Assembly (NCBI RefSeq): GCF_000150955.2
Contig: NW_002238013.1
Location: forward strand, 1 to 33,557
Reading direction: 5' to 3'
DNA from: Phaeodactylum tricornutum CCAP 1055/1
Lineage: Eukaryota; Bacillariophyta; Bacillariophyceae; Surirellales; Neidiaceae
Length of the DNA: 33,557 nucleotides
Within the stretch, counting starts at the first letter, position 1; every line of letters begins with the position of its first letter. The notes under the pieces were generated by a model that saw only the letters and a program-made list of their open reading frames with translations, was not told the DNA's origin and did not search any database. Below, piece after piece: positions 10,738 through 33,557 of this stretch. A program made the translations under genes and the position numbers.

Positions 10738-12744
10738 ATGATGCGAAGTATAGAGCGACGACAATGTCTATTCCACCGGACGGCGGGCTTGGACACGAAG
10801 ACCTTGTGTTCATTTGTCACGACCGCATACTTGCTACTGACAGTGACCGTCGGTTCTCACGCACAGAGCCATCCGAAGCAAACGTGCACAATTGCCTATG
10901 ATGGTACTTCCGCGTGTAAAGAAAGCAGCAACGACGACGATGTCAATCGGCAAGCAATTAATGCGGGAATGACTGTCTCTTCTGCTTTGTCGGATTCCAC
11001 CTGTGGCTTGTATTTGGCACCCTCCACCATTCCTGGTGCAGGCGTGGGGATATTTACGGCGGTGGAGAAGCAAATTGGGGATACGGTAGGACGTGGAGAT
11101 ATTTGCATTCCCGTCATTGATATGTACTGGCACGCCGACGGCATCACGCAACCCTTTTCGGACTATTTCTGGTCCGGAGACACCATGGGCATGTCGCACG
11201 AAACCGACTCGGACGACGTTGAAGCACTCTGTCCGGGGTTGGACTGTGCCATCAACTGTCATCTTGCACTCGTTAACGTGGAGAAAGCCGTCCCCGTCTA
11301 CGACGACTTTGGAGCGCTACACCGATCCCGCGATCCTGGAACCGGCGCCTTTTCCCCGTACCACAACGGAACCACCTACGTGTCCCGACACATTCCAGCG
11401 GGAGGAGAATTGTTCAAGTTCTATGGGGATCACTGGTTCCAAACAAGACCTCATGTTTTTGGCCTGATCCCACTTTCGGAGGATTACGAAACGGCGGAAG
11501 ACATGAATGAAAAAATGGTGCTGCTACTGCAACGAGCTTTGGGTACCCGCGATGGCGTCAACGTCAGCAGTGGCAACAATCTGTTGGAGGACTGGTTTGG
11601 TTTGCTACAGAAAATTAATGCCGGTGCCTTTGAATCGCGCACCCTCAATGCCTTGCCCCAGTCTTGGGCCGACGCCACGTTGGCCGCCAAAGACACAATA
11701 TCCGCCCTACACCAACCATCCGCGACGCGGGATGTGGCCTGGCTGGAAAAACACGGACGATGCATAGATCATGTAGAACCGCGAACGAGTACCATCGTAC
11801 CGCAAGCCGGGCGTGGAGCGTTTGCCGTGCGAAGCTTGCTGCGTGACCAAGTCATCACCACCACGCCTCTGCTGCACGTGGCGGATGCTGATTTCTTCAA
11901 TCTGTACAATGTCACCTCGATGTTTGACGAAAACGACAATGAACACTATCAGAAACATGTTGACACTGTGGTGGGATCCCAGATCCTTTTGAACTATTGC
12001 TTTGGACACGAAGAGACGACCGTTATATTGTGTCCTTACGGATCCGGTATCAACTACATTAATCACGACGCAACACTCGCCAATGTAAAAATCAGATGGG
12101 CGGTCGATTTTGACGTCGTTCACGACGATGAAGTTGTACAATCATGGACGGTGGAAGATTTGGAAAACGATACTAAGCCACGTCTTGCCTTGGATTACTT
12201 CGCAACGAGGGACATCGAGCCCGGTGAGGAACTCTTACTTGACTACGGCGCCGTATGGGAAGAAGCGTGGCGGGAACACGTCGACACATGGCAGCCGTAC
12301 AATGGGGTCGTGGATGCTATAAGCTACGGTAGTGCCACCACAATGAATGAAGTCGCCCGCGAAACCCCACTGCGGACGCAAGACGAACAAAGGTTCGATC
12401 CGTATCCAGGCAATTTGCAAATTCGGTGCCATTACGCTCTCAAGAATACCATAAATCGCGAGGAGGCCTACGTTTTCCATTGGCGGGACACTGATTACGG
12501 CTACGCATGTCACATTCTTGATCGGTTTATTGAAGACAACAAGGACTGGTACACGGTCGAGCTGGAATTGACGGTCGATCCCGACGCCGAAACCGCTGTA
12601 AGAACAGAGCGAACGGATGTACCCCGATCGGCGATGCAATTTTTCCCGGCCCCCGGAACGAGTGATTTACAGTTGCCCAACGCTTTTCGACACTTGATCG
12701 GTCTACCGGACGAACTTCTTCCCCCGCAATGGCGCAACTTGTAG
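10738..12744 (+). CDS. Signal-peptide protein with one degenerate and one better-conserved SET domain
   Basis: I prefer the ATG at 10,738 (or the next codon) because it places a hydrophobic stretch (TTAYLLLTVTVGSHA, then QS) as an N-terminal signal peptide; the same frame is open to an ATG at 10,552, giving 730 residues. Numbered from 10,552, a first SET-like half spans about 160-310: GAGVGIFTA near 164, INCHLALVN, and GGELFKFYG near 283. A second spans about 420-610: GRGAFAVRS, GSGINYINHD near 496, and GEELLLDYG near 557, corresponding to the SET substrate/cofactor 'NH' and 'GEEL..DY' motifs. SET enzymes methylate lysines, but secretory targeting is unusual for a histone methyltransferase, so the substrate is unknown. 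No intron is needed. The partial copy at 3,038 shows this locus has been duplicated. Confidence 0.8.
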   Translation: MMRSIERRQCLFHRTAGLDTKTLCSFVTTAYLLLTVTVGSHAQSHPKQTCTIAYDGTSACKESSNDDDVNRQAINAGMTVSSALSDSTCGLYLAPSTIPGAGVGIFTAVEKQIGDTVGRGDICIPVIDMYWHADGITQPFSDYFWSGDTMGMSHETDSDDVEALCPGLDCAINCHLALVNVEKAVPVYDDFGALHRSRDPGTGAFSPYHNGTTYVSRHIPAGGELFKFYGDHWFQTRPHVFGLIPLSEDYETAEDMNEKMVLLLQRALGTRDGVNVSSGNNLLEDWFGLLQKINAGAFESRTLNALPQSWADATLAAKDTISALHQPSATRDVAWLEKHGRCIDHVEPRTSTIVPQAGRGAFAVRSLLRDQVITTTPLLHVADADFFNLYNVTSMFDENDNEHYQKHVDTVVGSQILLNYCFGHEETTVILCPYGSGINYINHDATLANVKIRWAVDFDVVHDDEVVQSWTVEDLENDTKPRLALDYFATRDIEPGEELLLDYGAVWEEAWREHVDTWQPYNGVVDAISYGSATTMNEVARETPLRTQDEQRFDPYPGNLQIRCHYALKNTINREEAYVFHWRDTDYGYACHILDRFIEDNKDWYTVELELTVDPDAETAVRTERTDVPRSAMQFFPAPGTSDLQLPNAFRHLIGLPDELLPPQWRNL

Positions 12745-12985
12745 CTAGAATAGATTACGTGCGTGTCTCTAAACAAATTGCCCCTCTATACAGGCTCGGT
12801 GTGTGTGGCCTGCTATGAGTTGCCGGACGGAATGAACTAATTGGTCGAGTGTAATAGTACGTAAACAGTTCGTAATATTTTGCGGTAGGGGGCTAATGTC
12901 GTTACATTAGTACGCATGCAGAAGCATATATAGTAGAATTAGAATGTAGAGCGTCTTTGTACGAGACTTGTTGCGATTCGTTTCC
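12745..12985. other. Convergent 3' region
   Basis: About 240 bp between two genes that point at each other. It should hold both 3' untranslated regions; nothing else is seen. Confidence 0.4.
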
Positions 12986-13849
12986 TCAGCAAACGATGGC
13001 GTGGCATCGGCAATAGTAGCCATAGTCCTCCTCCTCGTCCTGGCTTTCTGGCTTCTTGTCGTTGACTTTTGGCTGCTCGCCATGATACATTTCGTCGTCA
13101 CGCAATTCGACAACGTCGTCGACGTCACGCGTATCACAGAACAGCTGGTAGACCCCATGCAGAACCACCAGACTACACAACGCCAAAAGCGATACGAGGA
13201 GCACTGTAAATCCCCACAGAGCTTGTCCAAATAAGACGAGACCCAGCACAATGTTGAGCAAGATTTCGGGGACCAACAACAAGACAACGTTGGTAACTCG
13301 ACATTCCTGCAAGGTCAGACGGTACAACCAGGTTGAAATGGCAAAGAGCGCAATAGTGGCGTTCACGACGGGCCAGTGATCAACCAACGCTACGGTAATC
13401 TTGGGCACGCTGGTCGATTCACTGTTAGTGGTGTTGTTGTTGTTCGAAATCGACCAAAAGACGATTCCGAATTGAATGGCAATCAGCGCCGGAAAGATCA
13501 GCAACAAGAACGTTGTATCTTGACAAGTCACCACGGAAACATCGCCACTGTTTGTGTGTGACTGCTTGTACCGGTATTTGTGCTGGTGCTGGTGGGGGAG
13601 CTTGTCGCGATCTAAACCCATGGAAATGGTACAGGAACACGCTGGATCGTCGGTGTCGTCCTTGTGGTAGGATTCGTTGCTTTCTACAATCGTTGTGTCT
13701 GGGTCGCGGTCGTCTTCCCCATTCCTACCGATGACGGCACTTGCGGGCGGCGCCTTTACGCCGGATCCTTGGGGTAGAAGGGGTTCCGTCAGATCGTTCG
13801 CGTTGTGGGGTGTTGCGGTACAAATGGAAGTAAAGGTCATTGCGTGCAC
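12986..13849 (-). CDS. Predicted four-helix membrane protein, function unknown
   Basis: A 287-residue protein without a family I recognise. The first 110 residues are hydrophilic, with acidic and His/Lys-rich patches (HQHQHKYRYK) and a short Cys motif (CSCT). Hydrophobic segments follow: TTFLLLIFPALIAIQFGIVF, VVNATIALFAISTWLYRL, NVVLLLVPEILLNIVLGLVL and FTVLLVSLLALCSLVVLHGV. An acidic soluble tail ends in a CRCHAIVC cysteine cluster that might be lipidated, which is inference. There is no signal peptide. The protein is convergent with the SET-domain gene. The start is the first ATG in frame; a second Met three codons later is possible. Confidence 0.75.
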   Translation of the reverse strand: MHAMTFTSICTATPHNANDLTEPLLPQGSGVKAPPASAVIGRNGEDDRDPDTTIVESNESYHKDDTDDPACSCTISMGLDRDKLPHQHQHKYRYKQSHTNSGDVSVVTCQDTTFLLLIFPALIAIQFGIVFWSISNNNNTTNSESTSVPKITVALVDHWPVVNATIALFAISTWLYRLTLQECRVTNVVLLLVPEILLNIVLGLVLFGQALWGFTVLLVSLLALCSLVVLHGVYQLFCDTRDVDDVVELRDDEMYHGEQPKVNDKKPESQDEEEDYGYYCRCHAIVC

Positions 13850-14788
13850 TCCTTTTACATAAACCGAATGTGAGAATATTTTTGTCTTGGATTGGGGGGA
13901 AGGAGGTGAATGGGGATGGTGTCACACTACTACTCGGTCCAGTAGAGTCAATGTGGTGGTGAGCAAATTTCGGACACACAAGATATGATGGATGGAACGA
14001 AATTTTAGTAGCAAGGCGGGAGGAATCGACGATAGGATACGGTGTATAGGGTACTAACTACCGTTGCTGGTGATGCCCCCGTAATCCAAACACACGGCAG
14101 CTATTCTTGGCTCTTACCAGTTTCCTATCTTTGGTCACGCTTGGCAATCGCGGATGAAACGTATATAGAGAGAAATGGCGGCTTATTATTGTTTCTTATT
14201 CCGACGTTAATTGCATTCACTCTTCTGAGGAACATACAAAATAGCCCAGCCCAGCGTCTTGAATCACTAGAGAAGAGCGGCCTCATACGACTACTACGAA
14301 AATGGAGGTACTCCATTTTTGTTGGATCAAATATGCCTATCGTGTCCATTCTACTTATCCGTACAAAAATTCTACTATTGTAAGTACTATGTGTGCTATT
14401 GGTATTGAATTTTACATAATTGCTGTTCACTTTGGATCTTCAACGAAATACGGATACCGCAAGTCTGTATTTACTTATATAAATAGTACAATCGAACGTG
14501 CTGTTTGGCGTACCAGTAGCCGTTGAGAGTGGGAGTGTCTGTTTTGGAACGAGATAACTGTAAAGCAAGTGACCGGGATGGTACCTCTTTGACGGTGCAC
14601 ACACGGACACGGACACGGACAAATCTGCACAGCCTTGCTCACAATGCACTAGTACTAGAGTGTTCCTAACAAACTGTAACGCAATTATTAATACCGGTCG
14701 TTCGCAAAACAGTCAGAAATATAAGCATTGTACGGGTTGTGGTACTAACTGTCTTAAAGTTCAAGGAGCTGTAGGGAAATGATTTATT
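13850..14788. other. Intergenic, no gene supported
   Basis: About 940 bp upstream of the membrane-protein gene. The longest open stretch (14,042-14,383 on the plus strand) has no domain, no signal and no homolog I recognise, so I do not call it. The region probably contains the promoter of the minus-strand membrane-protein gene. Confidence 0.45.
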
Positions 14789-15070
14789 CTATGCAGAAAA
14801 TCGCTCGGCCAACTTGTGTTTTAACCCTCCAGCGGAACGGGTAACCTCATCGCAGCAGGCCTGACAGAAGCCAGCCGAACCGAGATGGACGAGCCAGAGC
14901 AACAGGGTAACGATGAGGTGATGGCTTGCAAAGCAACGCAAGATTCCTAGCACGTCGATTCGAGTGGTCAAATCGAATATTCTACGGCAAATTTCGACTT
15001 GCCGAGCGTGAGTTATCGGAGAAGAGCTACTTACAGTCAATTCCTGACGTCCTATGGTCAGTTTGGACAA
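14789..15070 (-). CDS. Possible short gene or last exon, hypothetical
   Basis: A 93-codon frame on the minus strand whose C-terminal half looks protein-like: a hydrophobic stretch (HHLIVTLLLWLVHLGSAGF) followed by CQACCDEV and a basic end. A GTAAGT at about 15,035 and a GCAAG just before the hydrophobic part raise the possibility that the first half is intronic and that an upstream exon exists. No family is recognised and no start is secure. It could equally be chance. Confidence 0.22.
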   Translation of the reverse strand: MSKLTIGRQELTVSSSSPITHARQVEICRRIFDLTTRIDVLGILRCFASHHLIVTLLLWLVHLGSAGFCQACCDEVTRSAGGLKHKLAERFSA

Positions 15071-15282
15071 CCCCTACGATCACACACTCCAAGGCGACAT
15101 CGAATGGTTGCTTCCTAATTTCTAATCAAAAACGTTTTCTCTAATCAAAAGCGATCCCGATCTGGATGAGAGGAGGAGCTGTAGCGTTCTAACTGTAAGT
15201 AATTGATCTAAACTTTAGAACCCAACCGCAAAGTGCAGGAACGTGGCACATTCACGAAATTTCGAGCTCTTGTAGTAGCAGC

Positions 15283-16526
15283 CTACTCGTCGTTCTGAGC
15301 GTCGTCGCTATCTTCCTCGGATGGCTTGTACGTTGGCCAATCGGTGTAACCTTTGGCGCCAACGTGTTGCCACCAGTGCTGATAAGCAGCTTCAGGTTCT
15401 AGAGGCCAGTCATTGGCGAAACGTTCGACCAGATCGGGATTGCTAATGTACAAACGTCCAAAGCAGGCCAGATCAGCGGCACCCGAGCGAATCATCCCTT
15501 CGGCAATTTCTTTCGTAAGTCCAACGTTGCAAATAATGGGACCGTCAAAGACTTTACGGATATCGGCAGCCGTAACTGCCGGACATAATCCATGGTATCC
15601 AAAGCCGAGACCATCCATAAGATGCAGGTAGGCCACCTTGAGTTTACTCATTTCGGCCGCCACAAAGGTAAACATCTGGGCGTTGTCCTCACTACCCATG
15701 TCTCCAAAGACTCCGTTGGGCGAGATTCGAAAGCCAATCCGATTCGAGGGGTAGGCTCCGCTGTCCACGACACCTTGCACAATTTCCTTCAAAAAGCGAA
15801 AGCGGTTTTCCATGCTTCCGCCGTATTGGTCCGCGCGTTTGTTGGTCTTGGACTGCAAGAATTGATCAATCAAATATCCGTTGGCGGAGTGGATCTCGAT
15901 TCCGTCAAAGCCTGCCTGACAAGCGAGTTTGGCACCGTGTACGTAATCTGCGACCACACTTTGAATCTCGTCCACCGTCAAGGGAACGGGTGTTTCGGGC
16001 GGTACATCTTCAAAGGTTGATGTCTTGACCTTGAAAGAGTCGGCCATGGGAATGTCGGACGCCGAAACTACGCGTTGGGATTCGACGTGAAAAGACGAAT
16101 GGGCTTGTCGACCCATATTCCAAAATTGGACATAAATCTTGGATCCCTTGGCGTGTACTTTATCCACGATCTTTTTCCATGCTTCCATTTGTGCTTCGGT
16201 ACGAAGCTCTGGACTGTTGAGCCAGCCGTAGCCCTCTTCAGAAACGGCAGTGGCTTCCGTAATGATGAGACCCGCCGACGCACGTTGTTCATAGTAAGTC
16301 GCCATGAGGTCGTTCGGTGTCCGGGAGACGGTATCGAGCGGATCTTCGGTAGGTGTGCAGCTATAGAATTGAAATACGAGTACAGTGAGTAATCGTGTTC
16401 GACACTGGGCACAAAATAGTTCGTTCTTGCCGCTTACCGAGCGCGGGTCAAAGGGGCCAGAACGACACGGTTCTGTAGCTCCTGTCCACCAACGGTGAAC
16501 TTGGAAAGTATCTGCAGATTGCTCAT
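15283..16526 (-). CDS. Old yellow enzyme / NADH:flavin oxidoreductase (two exons)
   Basis: An FMN-dependent ene-reductase of the OYE/12-oxophytodienoate-reductase family, which reduces activated C=C bonds with NAD(P)H. The continuous frame is wrong at its N-terminus. Splicing out 16,361-16,437 (77 bp, GTAAGC...TATAG) joins 16,526-16,438 to 16,360-15,283 and gives 388 residues, a normal length. The start then reads MSNLQILSKFTVGGQELQNR, with the family-typical LAPLTRARCTPTEDP across the junction. YYEQRASAGLIITEAT follows at about 52-67. The active-site HSAN is at 187-190, with the Tyr proton donor at 192. DQYGGSMENRFRF and the FMN-phosphate loop CNVG...ACFGRLYISNP (about 307-338) are present. 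There is no targeting presequence, so a cytosolic location is likely. The gene is divergent from eIF2-beta. Confidence 0.93.
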
Positions 16527-17117
16527 GATCTGGACTTTCCGTAGAGTGAATAACGTGTGTGTGCTTTAGGATGGCACACGAGTGCAACGATTATGAGATC
16601 GAGGAGATCGATGTTGTAGGAAGCCGCTACGAGGTTTCCCTGGGATCGGCAGGTTCGTGGCCATCGGCATCGGCAGAAAAGGACAAGACATCGTAGCGGG
16701 AACCGATGGGAACAAATTCGAAGCTCGTGGAAACTGGGGATTTTCGTTTGTTCGGAGAAATAGTCGTGTCATTAGACGTATACTATGGAGTACATTTAAT
16801 GTTTTGCGACGAAGCGTCACCCAAAACCAAGTGACGTTCTTAAATCCACTGAGTCAGTTTAGTGTCGTGGACTTGTTGCAGCCGAGACACCTGAAGAATG
16901 AACTTCATTTCTTCTTCCTAGATTCCGGATGCCAGTCGTATTTCGGCCCAGACGAGCACAGTCCAGACGATCCAGGTTGACCCCACGTCTGTCTGTCTTT
17001 TTGCTCCAGCGGCAGGCACGTTTAGGAGCCTGTCGGGTTTGCCCCACGATGGGAGGTGTCGATACGATCGACCATACTTGGTAACCACTTTCCGAGCAAA
17101 CACCTATCAGTGCCATT
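16527..17117. promoter_or_regulatory. Shared divergent promoter region (flavin oxidoreductase / eIF2-beta)
   Basis: About 590 bp between the two start codons, the only space available for both promoters. An open stretch on the minus strand (16,566-16,820) has no domain and is not called. No specific motif is claimed. Confidence 0.45.
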
Positions 17118-17837
17118 ATGACCGAAGAAGAGCAAGAGACTATGAGCGACGTCGAAGAAGAGGCTGACGTCGCTGCCATGTTGGACCTGAGCAAGAAAAA
17201 GAAGAAGAAAAAGAAAAAGACGTCGTCCTCCAAATCCAAGACTACCGACGAGGACGACACGAACGCTCCCGACCTTTCGGGACAGCAGCGGCTCTTACAA
17301 GAACAAGACGAAGCCCAAGAAATGGAAGATGTTGATGACCGCAAGGCCGAGTACACGTACGAAGAACTCCTGGATCGGGTCGTGGATTTGCTGCAAGCCA
17401 ACAATCCAGACTTGGTTGAAAAGAAGCGGACCCGCATCAAGCCTCCGCAACTCCAGCTGTTGTCCAGCAAGAAGACTCTCTGGGTTAACTACCAAGAGAT
17501 CTGCTCTATGATGCAGCGCGATCCTCTGCATGTTTACCAATTCTTCATGGCAGAACTTGGGACCGAAGGTTCCATGGACGGAAATCAGCGTCTCATTATT
17601 CGAGGCAAGTACCTCTCCAAGTACATTGAAAGTCTACTGCGGAAATACGTCATCGAATACGTGACGTGCGAAATGTGCCGTTCGCCCAATACTGATCTCG
17701 TCAAAAATCAAGCCTCTCGTCTCTACTTTTGTACCTGCCGCGACTGCGGGAGCTCCCGATCCGTAGCCCCCATTCGGTCCGGGTACCACGCCACCTCTCG
17801 CGCCGATCGTCGGGCTGCCCGAAACGCCAAGGGTTAA
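17118..17837 (+). CDS. Translation initiation factor eIF2, beta subunit
   Basis: The beta subunit of the eIF2-GTP-initiator tRNA complex, acting in cytosolic translation start. The 239-residue protein has an acidic N-terminus with one lysine run (about 26-34). In animal and yeast eIF2-beta three such K-boxes bind eIF5 and eIF2B-epsilon, so one is a reduction. YTYEELLDRVVDLLQANNPD at about 79-98 and the central domain follow. The C-terminal zinc ribbon has Cys 184, 187, 207 and 210 (CEMC ... CRDC), followed by a basic tail. No intron is required. It converges on the next gene with 121 bp between stops. Confidence 0.96.
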   Translation: MTEEEQETMSDVEEEADVAAMLDLSKKKKKKKKKTSSSKSKTTDEDDTNAPDLSGQQRLLQEQDEAQEMEDVDDRKAEYTYEELLDRVVDLLQANNPDLVEKKRTRIKPPQLQLLSSKKTLWVNYQEICSMMQRDPLHVYQFFMAELGTEGSMDGNQRLIIRGKYLSKYIESLLRKYVIEYVTCEMCRSPNTDLVKNQASRLYFCTCRDCGSSRSVAPIRSGYHATSRADRRAARNAKG

Positions 17838-17958
17838 CAAATCGAAACGCAACTGTAACCAAGGGCTATTTCAATTCAGTCAAAATGCAGCCAAACTTAC
17901 TACGTTGCCTACCAGTAATGCTACAGCGTTTAATGTAAAATCGTCTTGTCAGGAATGT

Positions 17959-19449
17959 TTAGGACTGACGAGGACTTCGGCAAAATATGACACGCAACAC
18001 ATTGATTGCTGGTCGATCCATTAATTGCTGTTTGCGGTCCGTCAGCAGTAAACTTTCATCCGTTAGCAACGATCGAAGATCGTCATCCTCGTTTGTCTTG
18101 CCTTCTTCCGCAAAGGCAAAGGGAGTATACGAAACCATCTCCGTGACCGCTTTGCGCTGGTGACGATTAGAAAGTGCGGTGGAATGGATAGGGTCGGGAT
18201 TACCCGTGCGAGTAATTTTTGACGTTTCGTCCAATCGATTCATTCTGAGCTGCAGCAGGTTCAAGCAATCCTGAATGTCTTTCAATTGCTCGCCAAAATG
18301 TTCTGTAGCCACGACAATCGCTTCCTTTTGCAAGTCTTGGAGTCGATGCAAAATCCGCCGCTCAACTCCTCTCACGTGTGCTTTCATTGCTTTTTCCTTC
18401 ATATCCAGCGCAATCAATTGGGTTCGAAAGTGACGGGTTGACGTTTCCTGCCATGCCCGCAAGGCTGTTGCGTCGCGAGGGAAAGGCTGTGCGACTGAAG
18501 GAGAGGAAGATGGATCGGTGCCTTTTAGACCAGACTCTTCTCTGTCTGATATCAAGGTCTGGAAATCTATGATGAGTTTTCGTTGACTTTTTAGAACCGC
18601 CAAGCAGAGCATTTTCAGATTTTCCATTTCAAGGCGTCCTGCTGAAAAATGATCGGTGGTACTTTTGTCGGATGCGAAAGGCGCCGTGCGATAGGTACAC
18701 GGGTTCTCCTCTCTCAATTGCGCCATGGCAGATTCTGTGGCATCACAGAAACTGCGCATCGAATTGACTGGTGACGAGTTCAGTAGCGACATTGGCCACG
18801 GTCGCGTTGCGGCGGGTTGCTGCAAATTCGAGAATATTTTTTTCGTGGTTCGTTGTGTGCGTGTATTGGCGGATCGGAGCAAGGGGATTGTCACATCGCT
18901 CCTCGCTGTCGACTGGCTTTCAGTAACTGGCGACGGTTGATAGGCTGGAGGTGTATTGGTGCTGGTCAGCCAATCACTGAGAGGACGGGATAGCAATGAA
19001 AGCAATTCCGGTTCGTTGGCTCGAAAGCGCTTGGCGTACGAAAGAGGATCCCATCGCGATTCTGGATTGGTTTTTATCAGGGCCAAAGGGCAGGCCTGGA
19101 TCACAACTCTGATAATTTCAACGTTGCAGGAGCTCTGTACAGCTACTTGCAACGGTGACAGCCCTTGTTTGGGAACAGACGCAACTCTGGGGTTGATCTG
19201 AATCATGGAAGCGATGATGTCAACGGAAGCATGATGTTTCAAAGCCAAACACAACATGTGGTAAGTCATGAGGGACGGGTTGGAATACAACAAGGCTTTG
19301 GATTTTTGCCAGTGTGTTACAGCGAATACCCTTGACAGTGATAGAAGTGACGCCGTAAGGTTGGTGCTATTCAAGGCATCGTCCTCCGTGGCCACGTCGC
19401 GATATTTTGCTTTTTGGCTTGTCGTTGTTGTTGCTGTCGTCCGGGACAT
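17959..19449 (-). CDS. Ankyrin-like repeat and coiled-coil protein, function unknown
   Basis: A 496-residue protein. Residues about 60-155 resemble degenerate ankyrin repeats (GLSPLQVAVQ, then VVIQACPLALIKTNPES), a style common in diatom proteins. A low-complexity Ser/Thr-rich middle follows. About 250-420 is a charged helical region with coiled-coil character (MEKAMKAHVRGVERRILHRL-like heptads, LRMNRLDE). There is no signal peptide and no transmembrane segment. A protein-interaction role is the most that can be said. No intron is needed. The start is the first Met of the open frame. Confidence 0.75.
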   Translation of the reverse strand: MSRTTATTTTSQKAKYRDVATEDDALNSTNLTASLLSLSRVFAVTHWQKSKALLYSNPSLMTYHMLCLALKHHASVDIIASMIQINPRVASVPKQGLSPLQVAVQSSCNVEIIRVVIQACPLALIKTNPESRWDPLSYAKRFRANEPELLSLLSRPLSDWLTSTNTPPAYQPSPVTESQSTARSDVTIPLLRSANTRTQRTTKKIFSNLQQPAATRPWPMSLLNSSPVNSMRSFCDATESAMAQLREENPCTYRTAPFASDKSTTDHFSAGRLEMENLKMLCLAVLKSQRKLIIDFQTLISDREESGLKGTDPSSSPSVAQPFPRDATALRAWQETSTRHFRTQLIALDMKEKAMKAHVRGVERRILHRLQDLQKEAIVVATEHFGEQLKDIQDCLNLLQLRMNRLDETSKITRTGNPDPIHSTALSNRHQRKAVTEMVSYTPFAFAEEGKTNEDDDLRSLLTDESLLLTDRKQQLMDRPAINVLRVIFCRSPRQS

Positions 19450-19983
19450 GATGTGGAAGTGGGCAGATGTCTCTGTTCCAGGATTTTGTGTGGGAGAGGG
19501 AACAGATCTTTCACTCTTCGTCGTTGAGAAACTAGCGGCACCTTATTTCTCGGAGGCGCTCCATTGTGTCAGGTTTTTCTTGTGCATTTCTCCGACTCGG
19601 CCACCGTGGATGAAACGCGTCTCTATCCGTTGGAGTGGAGTAGTGTTGCGTTGCGTTGTCTCTATGGCTGACTGCACCGCTCACGGTCAATACATAAGTA
19701 TGATGCAAAGAGGGCAAGAACCAATTCCAATCAAGTTTTCGTGAACCTTGGAACGTTCGCGAAGTGAGTGTGAATGTCTGGACGACATGATAGTCTACAT
19801 CACCTCTCGTCAACAATGAAAGTCTGTCCGCTATACGACCTTGTCACAACAAAATTTGACTCCGTTACCGAATCGAAAGCGAAAACTCCGCCATCAACAG
19901 GTAAAAGATCGCTTCACCATTTGTAGGAGTCTTCAATCCGGCAAAGAACTCTGTGGTAGAACATTGTTTCGTTTATTGGAAGA
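19450..19983. promoter_or_regulatory. Divergent promoter region
   Basis: About 530 bp between the start codons of the ankyrin-like gene (minus) and the DUF1415-type gene (plus). Small open frames on both strands overlap each other and are not supported as genes. Confidence 0.4.
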
Positions 19984-22009
19984 ATGTGGAAGAAACTTTT
20001 TCAACAGTGGCTCTTAGTAGTGGCAATTACGCGGAACATGGCCTCTGCTTTTGCGTTCCAGCCGCAACACCGACGGCGGAGTGAGAGCCATCACCTTCGT
20101 ACAGGCAGTGTCCAGCAGAAGCGGCCGTCGTCCTTTGTAGGGTCGCACGCCCCTTACACTAGTTCAAGGACAACGTTGAAAGGTATCGTAAATCCAGATT
20201 CCTTCTTCACCGATGACGAATGGCATCCACACGATCCTGCCTTTACCACGCCCCAGCTATTGGCCGGCGTCTGGGATCAAATTGCGCATGCTGGAACCAT
20301 GTCGAAAGGAGTAAGTCTGCGTCGCGCTATAGATTGGCAAAGAAATTGATACGCAGGAATTGAGGGTTGACGGATTGGTCTCGTCTTTACATGCTGCTCG
20401 TCAAAACTTTTGTTCTATCTGCACCGACACAAAGATTCATTCCGTCTCATGTGTTTCCTGATCAATTCCTTTTTGTCCCCTGACTTAGGAAACAAATACG
20501 GTGATTTATCCGCAAATTCAAGATAAATTCACACCCCGCTATCTCAATCTACTCATGGGCCATCTGGACTTTTGCAAAGACGTTTGCGACCACTTTGGTA
20601 TCTCAACGGCACTGGTGCCGTACCAGAAAGACGGCAAGATTGTCGGATTTACTGTGAAAAGCTTCAGGAACAGCGAAAGTAAAGAAGACGAGTACGAGTT
20701 TGGCTACGATCCCTTTTGGGATGATGGGACGGATTTTGATAACCTCTACGCGGGTGTAGATGACGACGATATGGCCAAGGATCCTTATCCGGCGATTGAA
20801 GTAGTCGTTCCGGACGATGACGAAGACATTATTGACATTACTAAAGCATGGGTCGGTAAGATGATGACAGATATGGGACTTTGTCCGTTTACTGCTGGTC
20901 CTGAACAAGCCGGTTTGCCGATGGGCAACGTGCACTACGAAGTCGATCGTAGCACGGGAGTCGAAGAGATGTACGCCAAATACTGGCACGAGGTGGTTCG
21001 GGTCGAGCAAAACAAGGAAAAAGACATTTCCACCACGCTACTGATCGTCCCTGAGTTCATGAGAGACAACGTAGAGCTTTTTGAGTCGTTTTCGAATACT
21101 TTGACGCAACCCTTGACGGCCTTAGACGTCGAAGATTTGCTGCAACTGGTCTTTTTCCATCCTCAGTGGGTGTTTAGGGATGGCAATGCTCGTGCTGGTG
21201 AAGCCCAGGCTGGCAACTATGCTCGAAGATCACCTTGGCCCATGATCAATATATTACGGACCAGCCAAGTACGGGCCGCCCAAAAGGGCATTCCGACTGG
21301 TCTCGTCTACAAACAAAATGAAAAGACATTGTCGTCTCTTGGCGTCGACCAGTTGGAAACTATGCTACGACTACGAGATTGGAGTGGGATTGCTGATTTC
21401 AAGGTCAATCGCCGGGAATATGATGCACTCAAAATTGCACAGGACTATCAAAGAACAGGAAAGCTTTCTGAGGAAGACATGTCGCTGGCAAGCGATTGTA
21501 CCCCCGCCGCCAACAAGATCGACCGATCTCAGGTGGAGCAAGGTAATCTTGTCAATGTCTTGTTGCAAGCCCTGGAAAAACGATTGGGAAAGAGCGAAGG
21601 TGGCGTAATTTCACCCTTGAGCGGACCCGAGACCAGTGCCACGGCAATGGCTGGTGATGTCTTAATTGAAGAATTGGATAGGATTGCTTCGAGAGGCACC
21701 ACTCCTATCGCAAACGTTGAAGAAATAGTACTATCCAAAACAGAACCAATTCAGCTGGAAGAGGACCAAGTAGTGAGACAGGATACAGAACAGGAAGGCG
21801 TCCCGAAAGAAGTAGAATTGGCACGGAAAAAACGAACCGAAGCGGCTCGAAGAGCTATGCTGGACGATATTGATGAAGAACCGTCTGCTTCCGGACGAGA
21901 AGCTATTGGTGGAGACCCATTGACCGATGCCTTGTTTGGAAGAGGCGGCATTCCCGATGTTGCGGACGATGATGAGTTAAAAGGTGTGGACCCTAGCTCT
22001 TTATTCTAA
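19984..22009 (+). CDS. Plastid-targeted protein with a DUF1415-type domain (two exons)
   Basis: Exon 1 is 19,984-20,310 and exon 2 is 20,489-22,009; the 178-bp intron begins GTAAGT and ends TTAG in phase 0. The product is 615 residues. The N-terminus has a hydrophobic signal peptide followed by ASAFAF at 20-25, then a Ser/Arg/His-rich stretch. This is the bipartite plastid presequence of diatoms, with Phe at +1. The middle, about 225-365, matches the DUF1415 pattern: WVGKMMTDMGLCPFTAG near 230, TTLLIVPEF, LVFFHPQWVF, and NYARRSPWPMINILR near 352. The last 150 residues are an acidic, low-complexity extension. The biochemical role of DUF1415 is unknown to me. Plastid location is inferred from the presequence. 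Confidence 0.88.
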
Positions 22010-22220
22010 TTAATGCATCCACCACGCAGTATGTCTTTTCGAGGCGTTATGCTACCCACGAAATCATTTTCGTTCGCGATGACGCACTTGCAAATCGTTG
22101 GCGGCATAGCACATCATTGCATCGTTGGCTATCGAAATGATACAAGCGTTAGATTGATTGATTAACGGTAAAGCAACATGTAAAGATTTACTCGTCGAAA
22201 GCCGCGGTGTGGAGTTCTCG

Positions 22221-22278
22221 ATCAGTCGCCATTTTACCGTATTCACGCAAAGCAAGATAGGTACCCTGATGACATCAT
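22221..22278 (-). promoter_or_regulatory. Candidate SECIS element in the 3' UTR of the selenoprotein gene
   Basis: It starts 16 nt after the stop codon. On the minus strand an ATGAT (from 22,278) and a CTGATC (to 22,221) can form the SECIS quartet, UGAU against UGAU, giving U-U, G-A, A-G and U-U pairs. Next to it GTCATCAGGGTACC can face GGTAAAATGGCGAC: ten pairs (one G-U), an A-C mismatch and a GGG/AAA internal mismatch. If the top two C-G pairs open, the apical loop is about 25 nt and starts with CC; CC replaces the usual AA in some SelM SECIS elements. The GGG/AAA mismatch is a weakness. The fold was found by eye. Confidence 0.45.
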
Positions 22279-22293
22279 TCAGCCCTCTATACC

Positions 22294-22989
22294 TTACATC
22301 ACCGAAACACTTTTCCATTTTTGAAATCCAGCATCACCCTTACGAACTTCGCCTATTGTCATTGTACGTCGTCTTCGTGTTCTACGTCGTCGAACACTTG
22401 TACACGATGCCGTTGCCAAGATCGTTGCCAGGAGTCCTCCGTATAGCAAAAACAGAGAGGTAACGGTGGGTGCGGTTTTCCCCAATAAATCTCGCTCTGC
22501 TAGCTTTGGTTCCCTGTGTCTCTGCTGTTTCCTGAGTGTAGCTTCTTTCAGCGCCGGTTCCTGGTCTCGATTCATAATTTTGCGAGGCTTTCGCGGGCGT
22601 CGCCATTCTCGCGCCCCTGCTTGTCTCTCTTCGTGTGGCATCTCTACTGCTTCCTCCGACTTTTTGACATATCCTTCTTCTGCCATCAAAGCATGCAATG
22701 CTTTTTTCGTCTGCAACTTACTTACAGTTAAATCAATGACCTCCACTTTGCTCCCTCCTTCGTTATATATGTGCATGACCGCTCGACGACCCGTAACGTA
22801 GGTCACATTAACCCCCACATACCATTCTGCTTCGCCGTCTTTGAGAAAGCTTTTGAGCTCGGGCATGCGGTTTAACATTCATCCTCCACAGGAAACGATG
22901 TCGGCTTCCGGGCTGGCGAATGAGTAAGCAAGGAAGCAAAACGCCAGCAAATGAGCGCACCTGAAAAGACTCGTGATTCTATTTTTCAT
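22294..22989 (-). CDS. SelM/Sep15-type selenoprotein with in-frame TGA (Sec37)
   Basis: Starting at the ATG at 22,989 the frame reads a signal peptide (MKNRITSLFRCAHLLAFCFL AYSFAS region, 1-26), then SPEADIVSCGGU, with TGA at 22,879-22,881 as codon 37, then MLNRMPELKSFL. This mirrors selenoprotein M, whose redox motif is CGGU followed by QLNRL and a 'KxF' helix. Residues about 34-110 continue the SelM/Sep15 thioredoxin-like fold (YVGVNVTYVTGRRAVMHIYN, then VEVIDLTVSKLQTKKAL). The full protein is 231 residues, longer than a typical SelM (about 145). The extra part is a basic linker, a hydrophobic segment at about 175-196 (SLFLLYGGLLATILATASC) and an Arg-rich tail. Likely an ER thiol-disulfide oxidoreductase. 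A model starting after the TGA would lose the signal peptide and active site. Confidence 0.88.
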
Positions 22990-23410
22990 CTTTCTGTGTT
23001 TCGCTGGGTTGTTATTCACTTTCACTATTCGCTGCACTGCTCTGTGGCGTTTCCAGGAAAGTACAACAATCTTTCGAAGTTATGGCACAATTTCGGTTGA
23101 TGTCTCAAGGTAGGAGGAACGACCGCTTTGAAAGTTCCTTGTAGTGTTAGGAAAACTGTCAGGCGATCGCTGTGCTGGCCCTTTTTTTACGTTGATACAC
23201 GACAACCGATCGGACCAACTGTAGCTGGCTGGGTATGAAAACACTAGCAGTAACACTAGTTAAACTCGGCGCAAAGTGTGAACTTTTGGCGTCTGCATAC
23301 AGCACTGGCTTCTGAAAGTTCCATACTGTAGATTATTACAATCTACCTTATCCATTTGCGAGATTGACTAACCACAAATTACAGGCCAATCTCATTTCCA
23401 CTTTCCCACC
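22990..23410. promoter_or_regulatory. Upstream region of the selenoprotein gene
   Basis: About 420 bp between the stop of the upstream minus-strand gene and the selenoprotein start, the only room for its promoter. No motif is claimed. An intron in the 5' leader cannot be excluded. Confidence 0.4.
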
Positions 23411-25442
23411 CTATGCAGTAGAAAGTCTTTCAACCAGCTCTGCCTTGCGTCCACTAACAGGCAAGCCGGCCTCCTTAAGTTTTCCTTTCAACTCAGCCAC
23501 TGTTAGAGACTCTAGGTTGGCCCCTGTCACTAATACCGATTCAGAGCTGGATTGCGACTCCCCTTCATCCGCAATGGCGCCTTCATTGAAAAAGTCGTCC
23601 ATCGCTGACGACAGAACTTCGTCCTCGATTTCGCTGTCCTCCAAAGCACCATATCCATTTTCCTGTTTGTACTGCACAGGGATCCTCTGAGATGGCCGGT
23701 CGACTACAACAGAGTATTCGTCGACGGTAATGGACCATTCACGGGTGCGATCATCAATTGAAATTGAAAAGTTGTCTCTGAGCTCATCGCGGACTTCATC
23801 CGCTGCCTCGTAGTCTCTATTTGTCTTGTGCACTAGCCGCGATGCAAGTTGCTTTTGAATGTAGACAATCGTGTCCTCGTCAAATCCATGATCCCCGCCC
23901 GCCAGAGGTGAAAAGACGTAGTCATCCGACATGACTCGCCATTCTCGTGAACGATCATCTACTTTGACAGAAAAGCGAGCTTCCAGCTCGTCTCTAATTT
24001 CGTCGGCAGTCGCAAAATCACGCTTACCCTTTGCCTGATCACGCTCCTCAACCAGGGAAGTCACGATTGCCACTTCTTCGTCGGATAACTCACCGCCACC
24101 ACGACGAGCAAAAGGGCGATTCTTATCATTGCTTTTTGATGGTAGCCCAAATTCTCCACCAATTGACCATTCTCGTAAGCGATCGTTGACAGCAACATTG
24201 AAGTTGTCCATTAAGTTATCTCGAATGGCGTCGGCAGTCTCAAAGTCACGAGATTTCTTGGCTTCGGACCGCTTTTCCAACTCGGTAATAATCAAGGCCT
24301 CATCCGCCGGCGTAACAGGCTGCGAATGTGCAGATATTGTGTATGAGCGATTCATATCGTCGAATCCAGGCTGATCAGGACCAAAATCTCCTCCGACAGA
24401 CCACTGACGAAGACGGTCTTCAATAAACACATTAAAATCATTTTTCAATTCGTCACGAATGTCGTCAGCCACACGATAGTTACGGGTCTGTTTAGCTCCG
24501 GAACGACGGGAAAGCAGATTTTCAATACTTTGCAGCTGCTCCGACGTCAGAACCTTCGCCATCAGAGTATTCCGATTGGGCGTATGGGCGATTGCGGTCG
24601 CTGCGCGAGCCTCGTTCACGGCTCGGTTTGCCCCCTTCGTTCGCGTAATCACCAAACATGACACCGTCAGCCCGCCATTCTTTACGAGCGTCGTGGACGT
24701 ACACACCGTTGGACAAGAGCTGTTCTTGCACTCGATCGGCGTCCTGGAATTGTCGAGACATTTTGTACTGTAGTCGCTCCGCCAAAAGAGCGTGTATCTC
24801 GTCTTCAGTGATGGCTGAAGACACGGGACCGGCATCGGACGACGCCGTGTAGTCGTGCCCGAGTGGACCAAAATCCTTGGGCTCACGGGTTCGTCGACCT
24901 CCACGATCCCCGCGACCAGAACTCTGTTCTCGGCCACCAGATCGTCGCATCCCCGATCCACTCTCGCTACATCCACTGCGCCACGTTTTTTCACGGTCCC
25001 ACACGGACACACCATGGATTTTCAACAAGTCGTCACGGATACCGTCCGCTTCTTCAAATTGTCCCGTTTTCCGGGCTTGCAAGCGCGCCGCGATGAGAGA
25101 GTTTACGGTTTCCAGATCAACGCTGGAGCTGTCCCTTGACGTATCACGTTCATAGTCATGACTGCCAGCCGCAGAGAAACCATCAGCTCCTCCACGTCGG
25201 CCGCGATCACTGTACGCATCTTGTGCGTAGCGACGACCGTCGGTGTAGTCCGCACTAGGATCAAAATCGTTGTAGAAGTCGTCGTATTCATCGCGTTCGG
25301 TGGCGAAAAACGAATAGCGTTGATCGCTCCTAGCACTCGGCGCGGTGCCCACTGTTGTGATAGACAAAGGCGTCGGAATCGTGAAAGCTTGGGAATTCCG
25401 AGCCACCACGACTACGATCAAGACAGCACATTTCCAGTACAT
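23411..25442 (-). CDS. Plastid-targeted protein with six CysRS-tail-like repeats and a SAP domain
   Basis: The ATG at 25,442 gives MYWKCAVLIVVVVARNSQAF, a signal peptide ending in an ASAFAP-like SQA-F site, so plastid import is likely; the frame is open to 25,529. Two overlapping frames (down to 24,522; up from below 24,650) must be joined. A 52-bp intron at 24,601-24,652 (GTGATT...GCGCAG) restores one frame of 659 residues; a 109-bp intron at 24,554-24,662 or a 1-base error would also do so. Six units of about 50 residues follow the pattern 'L..R..AK..RDFE.AD.IRDEL...F.V.V.DR.REW' (two before the join, four after), resembling the C-terminal helical motif of cysteinyl-tRNA synthetase. The last 35 residues (LTVAELKGKLKEAGLPVSGR) are a SAP domain, usually nucleic-acid binding. 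A plastid nucleic-acid role is inference. Confidence 0.82.
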
Positions 25443-25896
25443 AATTAACAACCGTAATTGGTAACGAAAACGATACACAATAACAGCACTCCGTCGAGAA
25501 AAGAATTTGTAGAAGGAAGTCTTTGTCAAGGATCAGAGGAATTGATGAATGGACTGACTGTGATCGTTTGAGAGAAATGGTTCATGGATGGGTAAGATTT
25601 GCTTGGTTGTCAATACATTCTCTATCTGAGTGGGTCCCAAATGTCTGCCGTACGTCGTCGTTTCCGACAAATGTCCTTACGCTACCCGAGTCGCCGACTG
25701 CTACTCGGCAGCGAAAAGAGTTTCGTGATGGCAGCCTAAAGAATAACACCGTCGACATACGCTGTCACAACAGCTTCACAGTCAGCTTGGACATCACGGA
25801 AGCAATTGACTTTGAACATGAAACATCGTCATAAAAGGGACGGTAATCACTATTCGAGACTAGGTTAACAAGCCGCTACCAGAGCCAAAAATTGCT
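25443..25896. promoter_or_regulatory. Divergent promoter region
   Basis: About 450 bp between the start of the repeat/SAP gene (minus) and the GUCD1-type gene (plus). An open stretch at 25,523-25,834 on the plus strand has no domain and is not called. Confidence 0.4.
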
Positions 25897-26853
25897 ATGT
25901 CTTGGAAGAACTGGTGGAGACCTTCAATATGTAGACAAGACCCACCCAGCGCCAGTAGTACGTCTTTAGACGGAGAAACGCGGACATTGCGATCATTCGA
26001 CTGCGAATTGCCAGATCCCGATGCCGATTCACAGCTAGAAGAAAAGGCGGAAAATGCAGCAGTACGCGATTTCGATGTCAAAAGGGCCGAGCTACTAGGA
26101 ATAAGACGGCGACGCATGTTGCACAGGATGGAACCACAGTCTACTTCCGATACCTTTCCTCACGTTTGCCAAGGGGAATCATGGGACTGCGGTATTGCAT
26201 GCATTGAGATGGTATACTTGTGGTGCTGTCAAAGCTGTAGAGTTGACGCTTTTCCGCTGTCAGCAGTACGAGACTGGATGGTTCGCTTTGCTTCGACACA
26301 ATCCATTTGGACCGTGGACCTTGTCATTCTTTTGCAAGGATTAAAAGACAAACTGCAGCTTCCAATTAACTTATTGTTTTGTTCCGATACGTTGCGAGTC
26401 AATACAGCCTTGGCCGCTCTTGACTATTATCAATCCACGTTCGACAAGGACCGGAAACGAGTCCAGCATCGTTTGCAGGCCGTATCCAAAATGAATATTC
26501 CAGTTCATCAAGGCGAGTTGCGAGTGGATGATCTCGTTGCAATACTGTCGGATGACAATGCTGTTGCCATAGTTTTAGTCAACAATGCAATGCTAATTGA
26601 TCAAGATGTCCCTGGCCAGCTAGGTAGAGAAAGCTGTTATACCGGGCATTATCTCGTTCTGTCGGGAGTTTCCAGCAATCCCCAACATGTGACCGCGTGT
26701 CATGATGCCTGGAGGGAAAACAGCCCCAGCTGGTGCTTTATAGCACACAACCCGGCGTCGGACGAAAAAGTCACTTTTCTAAATCCAGTAACGCTGGAGC
26801 TGGCTTGGGACTCGATAGGAACGGACCATGATATAATATTCATCGTGAAGTAA
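25897..26853 (+). CDS. Guanylyl cyclase domain-containing protein 1-like (GUCD1 family)
   Basis: A 318-residue protein of the family named after plant 'guanylyl cyclase 1' and animal GUCD1. The fold is like papain/C39 peptidases, and genuine cyclase activity is doubtful for the family as a whole. The family landmarks are present in order: HVCQGESWDCGIACIEM at 89-105, with the putative nucleophile Cys98; RVNTALAALDYYQ in the middle; YTGHYLVLSGV near 249, with the His; HNPASDEKVTFLNP; and the end GTDHDIIFI. The first 85 residues are acidic and variable. No signal peptide is seen, so it is probably cytosolic. No intron is needed. Confidence 0.88.
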   Translation: MSWKNWWRPSICRQDPPSASSTSLDGETRTLRSFDCELPDPDADSQLEEKAENAAVRDFDVKRAELLGIRRRRMLHRMEPQSTSDTFPHVCQGESWDCGIACIEMVYLWCCQSCRVDAFPLSAVRDWMVRFASTQSIWTVDLVILLQGLKDKLQLPINLLFCSDTLRVNTALAALDYYQSTFDKDRKRVQHRLQAVSKMNIPVHQGELRVDDLVAILSDDNAVAIVLVNNAMLIDQDVPGQLGRESCYTGHYLVLSGVSSNPQHVTACHDAWRENSPSWCFIAHNPASDEKVTFLNPVTLELAWDSIGTDHDIIFIVK

Positions 26854-27465
26854 ATTAGAATGTGACCATAATGGCTTCTTGAGTTTGTAGTACTTGCACT
26901 TCACAAACAACCATACTATCAGCACAGACGAATAAAGCCCTGCTAAAAGATGGTGTGACGCTTCAATACAGCGGCGTCTCATATTATGTCAAAATGGTGC
27001 AACGCCATTCGAAGTCCAAGACAACCACACCAATATCGACAACACTACCAATGGCATAGATGCGTGGAAATTATTTGGCGAAGTCTCATACACGTATGAA
27101 CTCAATTATCTAACATTTGCCACAACGACAATTATAGAACGTATTTTCCTTTGCATTGCATGCGCCTAAGATACACGATTGTTTTCCGAAGATGCTTGTT
27201 GAGCAAATGGCGTCCTGCTATAAGCAGTGCTTTCCATTCTCATATATGTCTATTGACTGCTATACTATATAGCCCATCCCTATGTACAACAAGAGTGGAA
27301 TTTAATTGTCGTCCCCGCTCTTGTTTCCAGATAACTATTGTTCAACTGGCCACTCAGGTACTCCTCTCAATCTTGGCACTTTTTCCAAATTCCAAAACAT
27401 AAATTATACTTTAGAGTAGCGATTCCATTCACTGCCTGTTAATACGTTGCAGCCAAGGTTCTTTG
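26854..27465. other. Convergent intergenic region, no gene seen
   Basis: About 610 bp between two convergent genes. Only short frames without domains occur. It is somewhat AT-rich and should contain both 3' untranslated regions. Confidence 0.45.
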
Positions 27466-29137
27466 CTACTTGCTCTCTTCCAAGTCCTTCCACTCACTGT
27501 CAAGGTTCTTCAGAGGCCGTGTAGAAAAGCGCCTAGATGCATACTGCATTTTTTGCTCCTTCGACATACGTTGCTGCTCATTGTTCACCTCATCAAATGC
27601 TTCACCACACCCACTAAGAAAAGTACAGAACTCAATGAAATCGACGCTCCCAGAAGCATCAATATCCAATGCACACCACAGGGCATTGAAATCGGCATCC
27701 GAAATTTTTCCTATCTTCCCATCATCCATCCACTGTTTGAGTTCTGTAAAAGGAAGTTGTGTAAGCAGCATATCATCACTCTACGCAGCTCACCAGGTTT
27801 GTTCATTTATGGTTTGCTTGTAACTTACCAGCCTTGTCAATGGTACCTCCCTTGTCTTTGTCAATGTGTTGGAATTCTTCTACCAACTTCTCATGAGACA
27901 GGGCACCAGCAGTGGGAGTTATTGAAATGTTTCTGGCAATACCACGGATGAACCGTTCCTTGATACGACGCTCCTGCTCTGCAATGATATGGCGATGCAG
28001 TGCGTATAACAGACCGAATAGCACTACAAGACCAAAGATGACGAATCCCGCAATTGCGCCAGTCTTTAACTCCGCATTAGGTTCTTGGTACGGAGATATA
28101 GTACATGTTGGATCATTTCCAATGCCTCCACACCATTCTTCCTCGGTTGGGTACGAAGCTGGATCCAAGGTGAAAGTCTGGAAAGGAACAGGGAGCCGGT
28201 CGATTTCTTGGATGTTGTGCTCAATGTAGGCTTCCTTGATAGCAGTAATCCACTCGCTTTCCTCCATTCTGATCATTCTTGCAAGAGCAGCGCCCTGTCT
28301 CACACTTCTGACTAAGTCAATAACGTTTTGGTTTAACAACGCTGTGTTGTTGTCAAGGAATACAAACGGATTGTTCTGGCTGAAAATCCCGTCCACAGTA
28401 TTGCTTCCCCACAGAGTACTAGAGTCAATCCAACTTAGCTGTCCCGATGGAATCAGATCGACGATTGAGTTACCAGGAAGCGCACTGTAGCTAACACGAA
28501 ACATCTCAAGGTCGCCTGGTCAAAACATGATAAGGGCAGTTGAGAGATGCAGCTCTTTAAATAAGGGAATATCACACTGATGGATAACATCTATCCCTTT
28601 CCCAAACAGATATAACAGAATTCTTGCCTCAGTCTTACCTCGGTTCTCGTGAGTGCTAGTCCCATACTGACCGACAGCAAGAACAATCCCATTGACGCCG
28701 CAGACTCCTGAGCCAATGATGTTTTGGAATGGCGGGTTGAAAGTTTGATTGCAGAAAGATTCAGGAGCTGGGCCGTACAAAGAGTAAGAAGTGAGCACGG
28801 CTCTCGAGCCATCAAGTGTGAAGTTCGAAAAAGTTACATATTCGCTTTGGGCGTAAGGAACACCCCATTCGTAGTTTCCCGGGAAATATGGTTTAGGCTG
28901 CGCTGGGACTGCCTCATCTTCAAAATTCTTTCCGACTACTTTCCACAATCCTTCGAATTGCTTCCAGTTGGATTCTTGTTCCACAATGGATTTAGGGAAA
29001 TTCGCATCGTAGCGAGTATCCGTCTCGCTAAGGCAAGGTTTCGTGAGCGACCCACCGCACTTTGATGGCTTAAGTGCATCCGAATGGGGAAGGATCACCG
29101 TTGCGATAACGCTCACAAAAAGAACAAGAAATTTCAT
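27466..29137 (-). CDS. Signal peptide, one transmembrane helix and cytosolic EF-hand pair (three exons)
   Basis: Three consecutive minus-strand frames join through two introns: 28,516-28,638 (123 bp, GTAAGA...CCAG) and 27,744-27,828 (85 bp, GTAAGT...ACAG). Exons 29,137-28,639, 28,515-27,829 and 27,743-27,466 give 487 residues. Residues 1-22 (MKFLVLFVSVIATVILPHSDA) are a signal peptide. Residues 23-317 are a lumenal or extracellular domain with several N-glycosylation motifs and scattered Cys, with no family recognised. The single helix is at about 318-339 (GAIAGFVIFGLVVLFGLLYA). EF-hand 1 at 385-396 (DKDKGGTIDKAE) spans the second intron; EF-hand 2 is at 422-433 (DIDASGSVDFIE). Both have acidic residues at 1, 3, 9 and 12, although position 5 of the first is Gly. 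A calcium-responsive membrane protein is the likely class; the ligand is unknown. Confidence 0.9.
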
Positions 29138-31937: not shown

Positions 31938-31948
31938 GGGGAGGGGTA

Positions 31949-33238
31949 TCACATTCGATTTATTTTCCAAACGAGAATCTTAAATTGCATCGGCAATTAG
32001 ATGGTGTGATTTCGTATTTGCCAGTGCGAAAGCCGTCTCCGGAGGAGTTTCGAAATTTTCACAAGTTGACTCTCACATATGACAATCCCATTTGGGATCC
32101 TTATTTGACGGATTTTACTCGTCAGGAGGAGAAGTATACCGATAGCAAAGGTATTTTGGCAACGAGACAATCCGGTCATGCAAACATTCAAATGATTTCG
32201 TCACACGAAAGTACAGTATCAGTTGTGTTGTCTAGTATTTCGGTGTCACTCGATGAACAGCATTTTGTCGAAGCACTTGAGAAGACATGTCTGGTGAGTG
32301 TTGCTCAGTCGTCGAATTACAGGTACAGAGTTACTCCGGAAGAGTTAGCCAGACATTGGAATATCGGTTTATCTGCAGCAAAACGAACTTTATTGGCTAC
32401 GACTCAGAGAGGAGTCAAGGATATTGCCAGTCGGTCTTTAACACAGAGAGTCAAGCCAACTACCAGTCAGCTCAGATACCAACATCTCCGTACACAACGG
32501 ATACAATGTTTTCTTGTGTAATGTCTTTGAGCAGAAACACCTGTGCCCAAATTTACGTCAACAATCTTGATTGGACACGTGCTTATGCTATGAAGTCAAA
32601 AGGTAATGCCCATGAGACATTGGATTTGTTGTTTCACCGAGAACGTGTTCCAGCCGAGATTATTTCGGATGGCGTGAAAGAATTGGTGCAGGGTGAATTC
32701 AGACGGAAGGTTCGTGCGGCAGGATCTCATGCTAGACAAATTGAACCTTACTCACCGTGGTTAAATTGAGCTGAGACTGCAATCAGAGCATTGAAACGCA
32801 TGACCAACATGGCTATGAAAAAGTCATCTGCACCGTTATATCTATGGGATTTTTGCCTGGAGTTGCAAAGTATAATTTGATCGTCAATTGCCCATAACAT
32901 TTATGCATTGAATGACAATGTACCGAACACGGCAGTGTCAGGTGATATGACGGATATCAGTCACTTATGTGAATTTGCTTGGTATGATTGGATATGGTAT
33001 TTGGACCCAGTCGACTTTCCGGTAGACAAACGGAATCTAGGTCGCTGGCTTGGTCCTGCACATGACATTGGTGATGTTATGTGTGCGCGTATACTTGTTC
33101 AAAGTGGTCAAGTGGTATCTCGAACTTCTTACTCGCCACTTTCTACAGCTGATCTTAATTCCAGGGAGGTGCAATCAGACAAGTCCTCATTTGACGCAAC
33201 TTTGAGCTATAATAACTGTGATGATGCTATTGCCCCTG
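31949..33238 (+). pseudogene. Copia-type retrotransposon, integrase half (decayed), running into the telomere
   Basis: The frame opens at SHSIYFPNENLKL and continues through pre-integrase sequence (VTPEELARHWNIGL). A frameshift at about 32,490 moves it to the frame with the integrase core: the first Asp in TDTMFSCVMSL, the second in IISDGVKEL, and the Glu in AETAIRALKR, i.e. a D,D,E triad. In-frame TGA codons sit at 32,767-32,769 (between PWLN and AETAIR) and 32,878-32,880. The C-terminal part (LCEFAWYDWIWY, LGRWLGPAHDIG) is typical of diatom copia integrases. Reverse transcriptase would follow, but the telomere starts at 33,239. The N-terminal border matches the end of the gag/protease half at 3,028. 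Confidence 0.85.
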
Positions 33239-33557
33239 TTAGGGTTAGGGTTAGGGTTAGGGGTTAGGGTTAGGGGTTAGGGTTAGGGTTAGGGTTAGGG
33301 TTAGGGTTAGGGTTAGGGTTAGGGTTAGGGTTAGGGTTAGGGTTAGGGTTAGGGTTAGGGTTAGGGTTAGGGTTAGGGTTAGGGTTAGGGTTAGGGTTAG
33401 GGTTAGGGTTAGGGTTAGGGTTAGGGTTAGGGTTAGGGTTAGGGTTAGGGTTAGGGTTAGGGTTAGGGTTAGGGTTAGGGTTAGGGTTAGGGTTAGGGTT
33501 AGGGTTAGGGTTAGGGTTAGGGTTAGGGTTAGGGTTAGGGTTAGGGTTAGGGTTAGG
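33239..33557 (+). repeat. Telomere, TTAGGG repeat array
   Basis: About 53 head-to-tail TTAGGG units running to the end of the window, G-rich strand 5'->3' towards the end, as expected for a right-hand chromosome terminus. Two TTAGGGG variants occur near the inner edge (33,257-33,263 and 33,270-33,276); the rest appears perfect. The array starts directly after copia integrase sequence. Confidence 0.98.

Follow-up and report, generated by a model that had tools for sequence, protein, structure and literature searches.

Selenoprotein M (SelM, SELENOM) has been described in a review as a thiol-disulfide oxidoreductase of the ER lumen with a C-terminal ER-retention signal; its redox motif is C-x-x-U, in contrast to Sep15 (SELENOF), which has a C-x-U motif and an N-terminal Cys-rich domain (PMC10650576). 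According to the same review, structures have been solved for mouse SelM and Drosophila Sep15, which presumably correspond to PDB entries 2a2p and 2a4h, respectively. SelM is a kind of protein already known from a diatom and widely from algae. Two SelM genes were reported for Thalassiosira pseudonana (PMC2375036), and algal SELENOM fusions include pVHL in Aureococcus and ShKT in Emiliania (PMC7539508).

The DNA analysed here is the whole of a 33,557-nucleotide contig of Phaeodactylum tricornutum (the window; contig C88 of the 88 contigs, 27,450,724 bases in all, that were searched as the genome). On its minus strand, a frame opens at an ATG at 22989 and runs through 36 codons to a TGA at 22881-22879 (codon 37), followed by 194 codons and a TAA at 22296-22294. 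The translation is exactly as the first-pass annotation had described it, and the motif around the TGA is SCGG-U-MLNRMPELK. Taken as a whole, the evidence is best explained if the locus encodes selenoprotein M with the UGA of codon 37 decoded as selenocysteine (Sec), a reading that we hold with high confidence. The features of the gene, all on the minus strand, are as follows.

22294..22989, minus strand: read-through CDS of the predicted selenoprotein M, 231 residues with Sec37, stop codon TAA (translation, Pfam, PDB match)
22879..22881, minus strand: in-frame TGA, codon 37, putative selenocysteine of the CGGU motif (present in both haplotypes)
22294..22878, minus strand: 194-aa ORF given instead by ordinary ORF calling (ORF list)
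22705..22902, minus strand: Sep15/SelM redox domain, residues 30-95 (PF08806, 42.9 bits; 39.7 bits in the genome search, with one TGA inside)
22912..22989, minus strand: signal peptide-like N-terminal segment, residues about 1-26 (hydropathy)
22402..22464, minus strand: predicted transmembrane segment, residues about 176-196 (Kyte-Doolittle)
22366..22392, minus strand: Arg-rich stretch RRRRTRRRR, residues 200-208, after the membrane segment (sequence)

The Pfam profile Sep15_SelM (PF08806; cut-off 26 bits) matches the 231-residue read-through protein with 42.9 bits over residues 30-95, spanning the TGA, and the ORF downstream of the TGA alone scores 31.6 bits, i.e. 11 bits less. Among PDB sequences, the protein matched SelM 2a2p (E 5.6e-6, residues 31-127), and the alignment across the site (CGGC-LNR-E-K-F) places the TGA at the Sec position of CxxU, the second redox residue. 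The assignment to a SelM family with CGGU followed by LNR, proposed from the sequence at first pass, was thus borne out by both comparisons. The Sep15 structure 2a4h gave a weaker match (E 0.038). Together with the CxxU motif and the absence of a Cys-rich domain, this value sets the diatom protein apart from Sep15, with which it has the Pfam family in common. The fold downstream of the TGA would be the same as in SelM, as judged by these alignments; an AlphaFold model built from two sequences (mean pLDDT 42.6, pTM 0.25) was too poor to use. NCBIfam profiles gave no match to the protein up to E 1, and single-sequence scans of viral and genome contig collections, in which only close relatives are detectable, returned no homologue.

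A genome search with the Sep15_SelM profile found one locus, represented by two haplotypes, above the cut-off, as compared with the two SelM genes reported for T. pseudonana in PMC2375036. The likeness to the latter is that of a diatom SelM by name only. A literature search gave no paper on Phaeodactylum SelM among the matches listed, and no claim is made that the gene is unpublished.

In the ORF list of the window, which has a minimum length of at least 120 aa, the sole entry at the locus is 22878-22294 (194 aa), opening at the ATG directly 3' of the TGA. This is precisely the false gene call, starting at the Met after the TGA, that had been anticipated. A layout of ATG, at least 30 codons, TGA and at least 150 codons occurs in three frames of the window and in none of 200 mononucleotide shuffles. 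With three such frames present, the geometry alone is not diagnostic, and it is the homology that carries the case. The other two such frames, at 1338-3131 (plus strand) and 27803-29137 (minus strand), each have two long ORFs separated by an in-frame TGA; their four ATG-started fragments gave no Pfam match above the cut-off.

The protein resembles SELENOM (PF08806, 2a2p) in the CxxU motif, a Sep15_SelM domain that spans the Sec position and the hydrophobic N-terminal leader, in which hydropathy windows exceed 1.4 between residues 5 and 32. Residues 1-33 include only two Cys, both in the leader, and hence no Sep15-type N-terminal Cys-rich domain. It differs from vertebrate SelM in having a basic linker, a predicted transmembrane segment (Kyte-Doolittle mean 1.83 at residues 176-194) and an Arg-rich tail, the last residue of whose RRRRTRRRR stretch (208) is replaced by His in the second haplotype, as well as in lacking an ER-retention signal. 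The C-terminal end, which lies downstream of the predicted membrane segment, is KSVSVM, without a KDEL-like sequence. This signal is treated here as typical of vertebrate SELENOM rather than as defining the family. The redox domain would face the ER lumen, with the membrane helix in place of the retention signal. Like the algal SELENOM fusions, the protein is an algal SelM with an added region, but what is added is a predicted membrane segment with a basic tail, in which no Pfam domain exceeds the cut-off, as opposed to pVHL or ShKT. The unusual points of the gene are the predicted C-terminal membrane anchor and the fact that no insertion signal is recognised (see below), and the tail may make it a SelM variant.

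The P. tricornutum reference (27.4 Mbp) comprises 33 chromosome scaffolds plus 55 that are unplaced (the 'bottom drawer') and were predicted to be gap fillers or alternative haplotypes (PMC8147415). Positions 10622-26969 of the window match C8:19795-3476 with 99.0% identity, the end of the window (33238-33557) consists of TTAGGG repeats, and C8 starts with CCCTAA repeats. Because of this identity and the telomere-type repeats at the contig ends, the window and the telomeric end of C8 are taken to be two haplotypes of one chromosome end. Elsewhere in the window, matches to the first 30 kb of C8 are shorter and more diverged pieces. The stretch at 31947-33239 is a 1.3 kb repeat. Other parts of the genome have at least about 20 matches to it, complete or partial, with 88-96% identity, besides further ones near 76%, the C8 haplotype not being shown among the 38 of 278 candidates scored. 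An ORF at 4161-5003 (minus strand) matches a WAP-type domain with 24.7 bits (cut-off 20.8), and its stretch also matches C8 at about 23.5-27 kb.

The second haplotype of the SelM gene (L002, on C8) is identical to that of the window (L001) at 3136 of 3198 positions of the compared stretch, with 22 gap positions, and retains the TGA; the otherwise open frames have 231 and 227 codons. These data bear on the alternative that the TGA is a real stop, with the locus being either a decaying SelM gene or one in which translation is limited to the 194-aa ORF downstream of the TGA. The ATG that opens this ORF directly 3' of the TGA would suit such a reading, as would the lack of a convincing SECIS and the codon differences between the haplotypes, of which 8 are non-synonymous and 2 synonymous. 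However, non-synonymous differences equal or exceed synonymous ones in all six neighbouring ORFs compared; hence the ratio is no sign of decay, nor is it a test of constraint. Codons 1-105 show no differences between the haplotypes, both of which keep the same TGA in a frame that is open elsewhere, and the changes are confined to codons 106-231, with 11 substitutions and one 12-nt gap (4 residues) in the membrane segment, C8 being the shorter; this indel is in frame. Moreover, the product of the downstream ORF would be devoid of the putative signal peptide and of both redox residues. Termination at codon 37 is considered very improbable, and the apparent stop most likely specifies Sec.

The reading of the TGA as Sec, made at first pass, gains further support from genes for the Sec machinery and from TGA codons in GPx and SelT genes. 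The machinery search covered tRNA-Sec, SepSecS, selD and eEFSec domain III. Two tRNA-Sec genes with the anticodon TCA were found with 78.7 and 66.5 bits (gathering score 47), and both were independently assigned as tRNA-Sec by ARAGORN.

G000:C21:401878-401963, minus strand: tRNA-Sec (L003)
G000:C9:702978-703065, plus strand: tRNA-Sec (L004)

The two tRNA-Sec(UCA) genes are clearly different, having the start of the acceptor stem in common and differing in the anticodon stem and variable arm. L004, which lies about 30 bases 3' of an RNase MRP RNA match, has more mispaired positions than L003. SepSecS (best exon 256.9 bits), selD (240.5 bits, cut-off 125) and domain III of eEFSec, the eukaryotic SelB (92.1 bits, cut-off 27), were matched as well. 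When the same models were applied to 14 control prokaryotes, matches above the cut-off were obtained in 5 for tRNA-Sec, 3 (including Bacillus subtilis) for SepSecS, 2 for selD and none for eukaryotic SelB; hence the specificity of the tRNA-Sec and SepSecS models is incomplete. Besides the fuller SepSecS match at C5:919039-920423 (L007, L008), there is a partial, SepSecS-like one ~5 kb away at C5:914004-914586 (L009, L010); it consists of two matches, one of which contains a single in-frame TGA.

Two of the three GPx matches in the genome hold one TGA (context ASK-TGA-G), as does one of the three Rdx matches, SelT (CNG-TGA-G), at positions that we take to be those where GPx and SelT usually have Sec. 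No TGA was found inside the matches to SelO (four) and MsrA (nine).

A further alternative is that the TGA is spliced out or that a Cys codon was misread in sequencing; SelM-like proteins may have Cys at the position of Sec. There is hardly any probability left for such an explanation, even with a reference assembly built from Sanger reads (PMC8147415), given that the homology is continuous on both sides of the TGA, so that an intron there would cut into the CGG-x-xLNR block, that the same TGA stands on two contigs that are 98-99% identical, and that other redox genes of the genome have TGA at Sec sites.

Selenocysteine at codon 37 would call for a SECIS in the 3' region, where the ORF of the convergent neighbour ends at 22009 and thus leaves about 284 bases. 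The Rfam model SECIS_1 gave no match either in the window or near the gene and, in the genome, two matches below the cut-off (20.4 and 19.1 bits) and none above it among the 133 of 383 candidates scored. This model also misses the element after the GPx gene L013, though the latter is clearly SECIS-shaped (ATGA-AAAA-TGAA); hence its silence at the SelM gene says little. A scored SECIS descriptor was then applied to about 340 bases of 3' sequence per gene, with 300 shuffles each. The best score was 22.3 for the SelM gene (equalled in 15 of 300 shuffles) and 21.0 for its other haplotype (28 of 300). The control genes gave 33.4 for GPx L013 (0 of 300), no candidate for GPx L012 and 15.0 for SelT L016 (142 of 300), the last being nothing convincing. 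As the scan recognises one of the three control genes, it cannot decide on a SECIS at the SelM gene. A first fold scan, a SECISearch-like scan and the scored descriptor gave only weak candidates there, none of them clearly above chance, of which two are given below.

22222..22277, minus strand: weak SECIS candidate ATGA ... CC ... TGAT (Y-shaped fold; identical in both haplotypes; not separated from chance)
22070..22116, minus strand: second weak SECIS candidate ATGA ... AA ... CGAA (G of the 3' GA altered in the other haplotype)

Y-shaped folds are filtered out in the SECISearch practice published in PMC2375036 ('Searches for SECIS elements'). A CC in the apical loop of SelM SECIS elements is documented in PMC3316567, among vertebrates, for placental mammals only, so the CC of the candidate at 22277-22222 lends little support. 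A stem around 22066-22034 was rejected as the second haplotype does not preserve its 3' GA, and a candidate at 22336-22286, which overlaps the stop codon, was ordinary, within the upper 37% of background anchors. Two stretches of the 3' region, when folded, showed no extra stability over shuffles (z 0.06 and 0.68). The diatom gene thus differs from SELENOM in that a SECIS is not recognised, and the failure to detect an element behind two other likely selenoprotein genes would fit a diatom SECIS that differs from the animal consensus in general.

The frame, the homology across the TGA, its conservation in both alleles and several machinery genes were established directly, and the following mechanism may be drawn from them. 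The putative signal peptide would direct the protein into the ER, where the thioredoxin-like domain with its Cys34-Gly-Gly-Sec37 redox pair would act as a thiol-disulfide oxidoreductase. Sec would be inserted at UGA codon 37 by tRNA-Sec and eEFSec, together with a SECIS-binding protein that works through a putative SECIS in the 3' UTR. Unlike vertebrate SelM, the protein would probably be held in the ER by its C-terminal transmembrane helix, with the Arg-rich tail predicted on the cytosolic side. The full combination of a membrane-anchored SelM, a cytosolic Arg-rich tail and Sec insertion via a SECIS that departs from the Rfam/SECISearch-type consensus is put forward tentatively, and it is more doubtful than not.

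The locus adds to the diatom genome a probable selenoprotein gene that is easily mis-called as a 194-aa ORF; the second haplotype has been located too, as have several genes of the Sec machinery. In its predicted membrane-anchored tail the protein departs from vertebrate SelM in a small and testable way, and the difficulty of finding SECIS elements in this genome with existing models is a practical warning for annotation.

Two further structures were observed at the control genes. A hairpin 3' of the GPx gene on C18 (L012:2186-2221, plus strand), ATGAC-AGTATCTGGC-TTTCAAC-GCCAGATATT-CGAA, with -12.7 kcal/mol for stem and loop, was spotted by eye and resembles a SECIS stem, except that the AA sits on the wrong loop side. 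A stable stem of the SelT gene (L016:1856-1892, minus strand) starts about ten bases past the Sec TGA (1899-1897), and its descriptor score of 28.8 is higher than those of all 258 window anchors; this stem may be due to coding chance or may be a stimulatory element.
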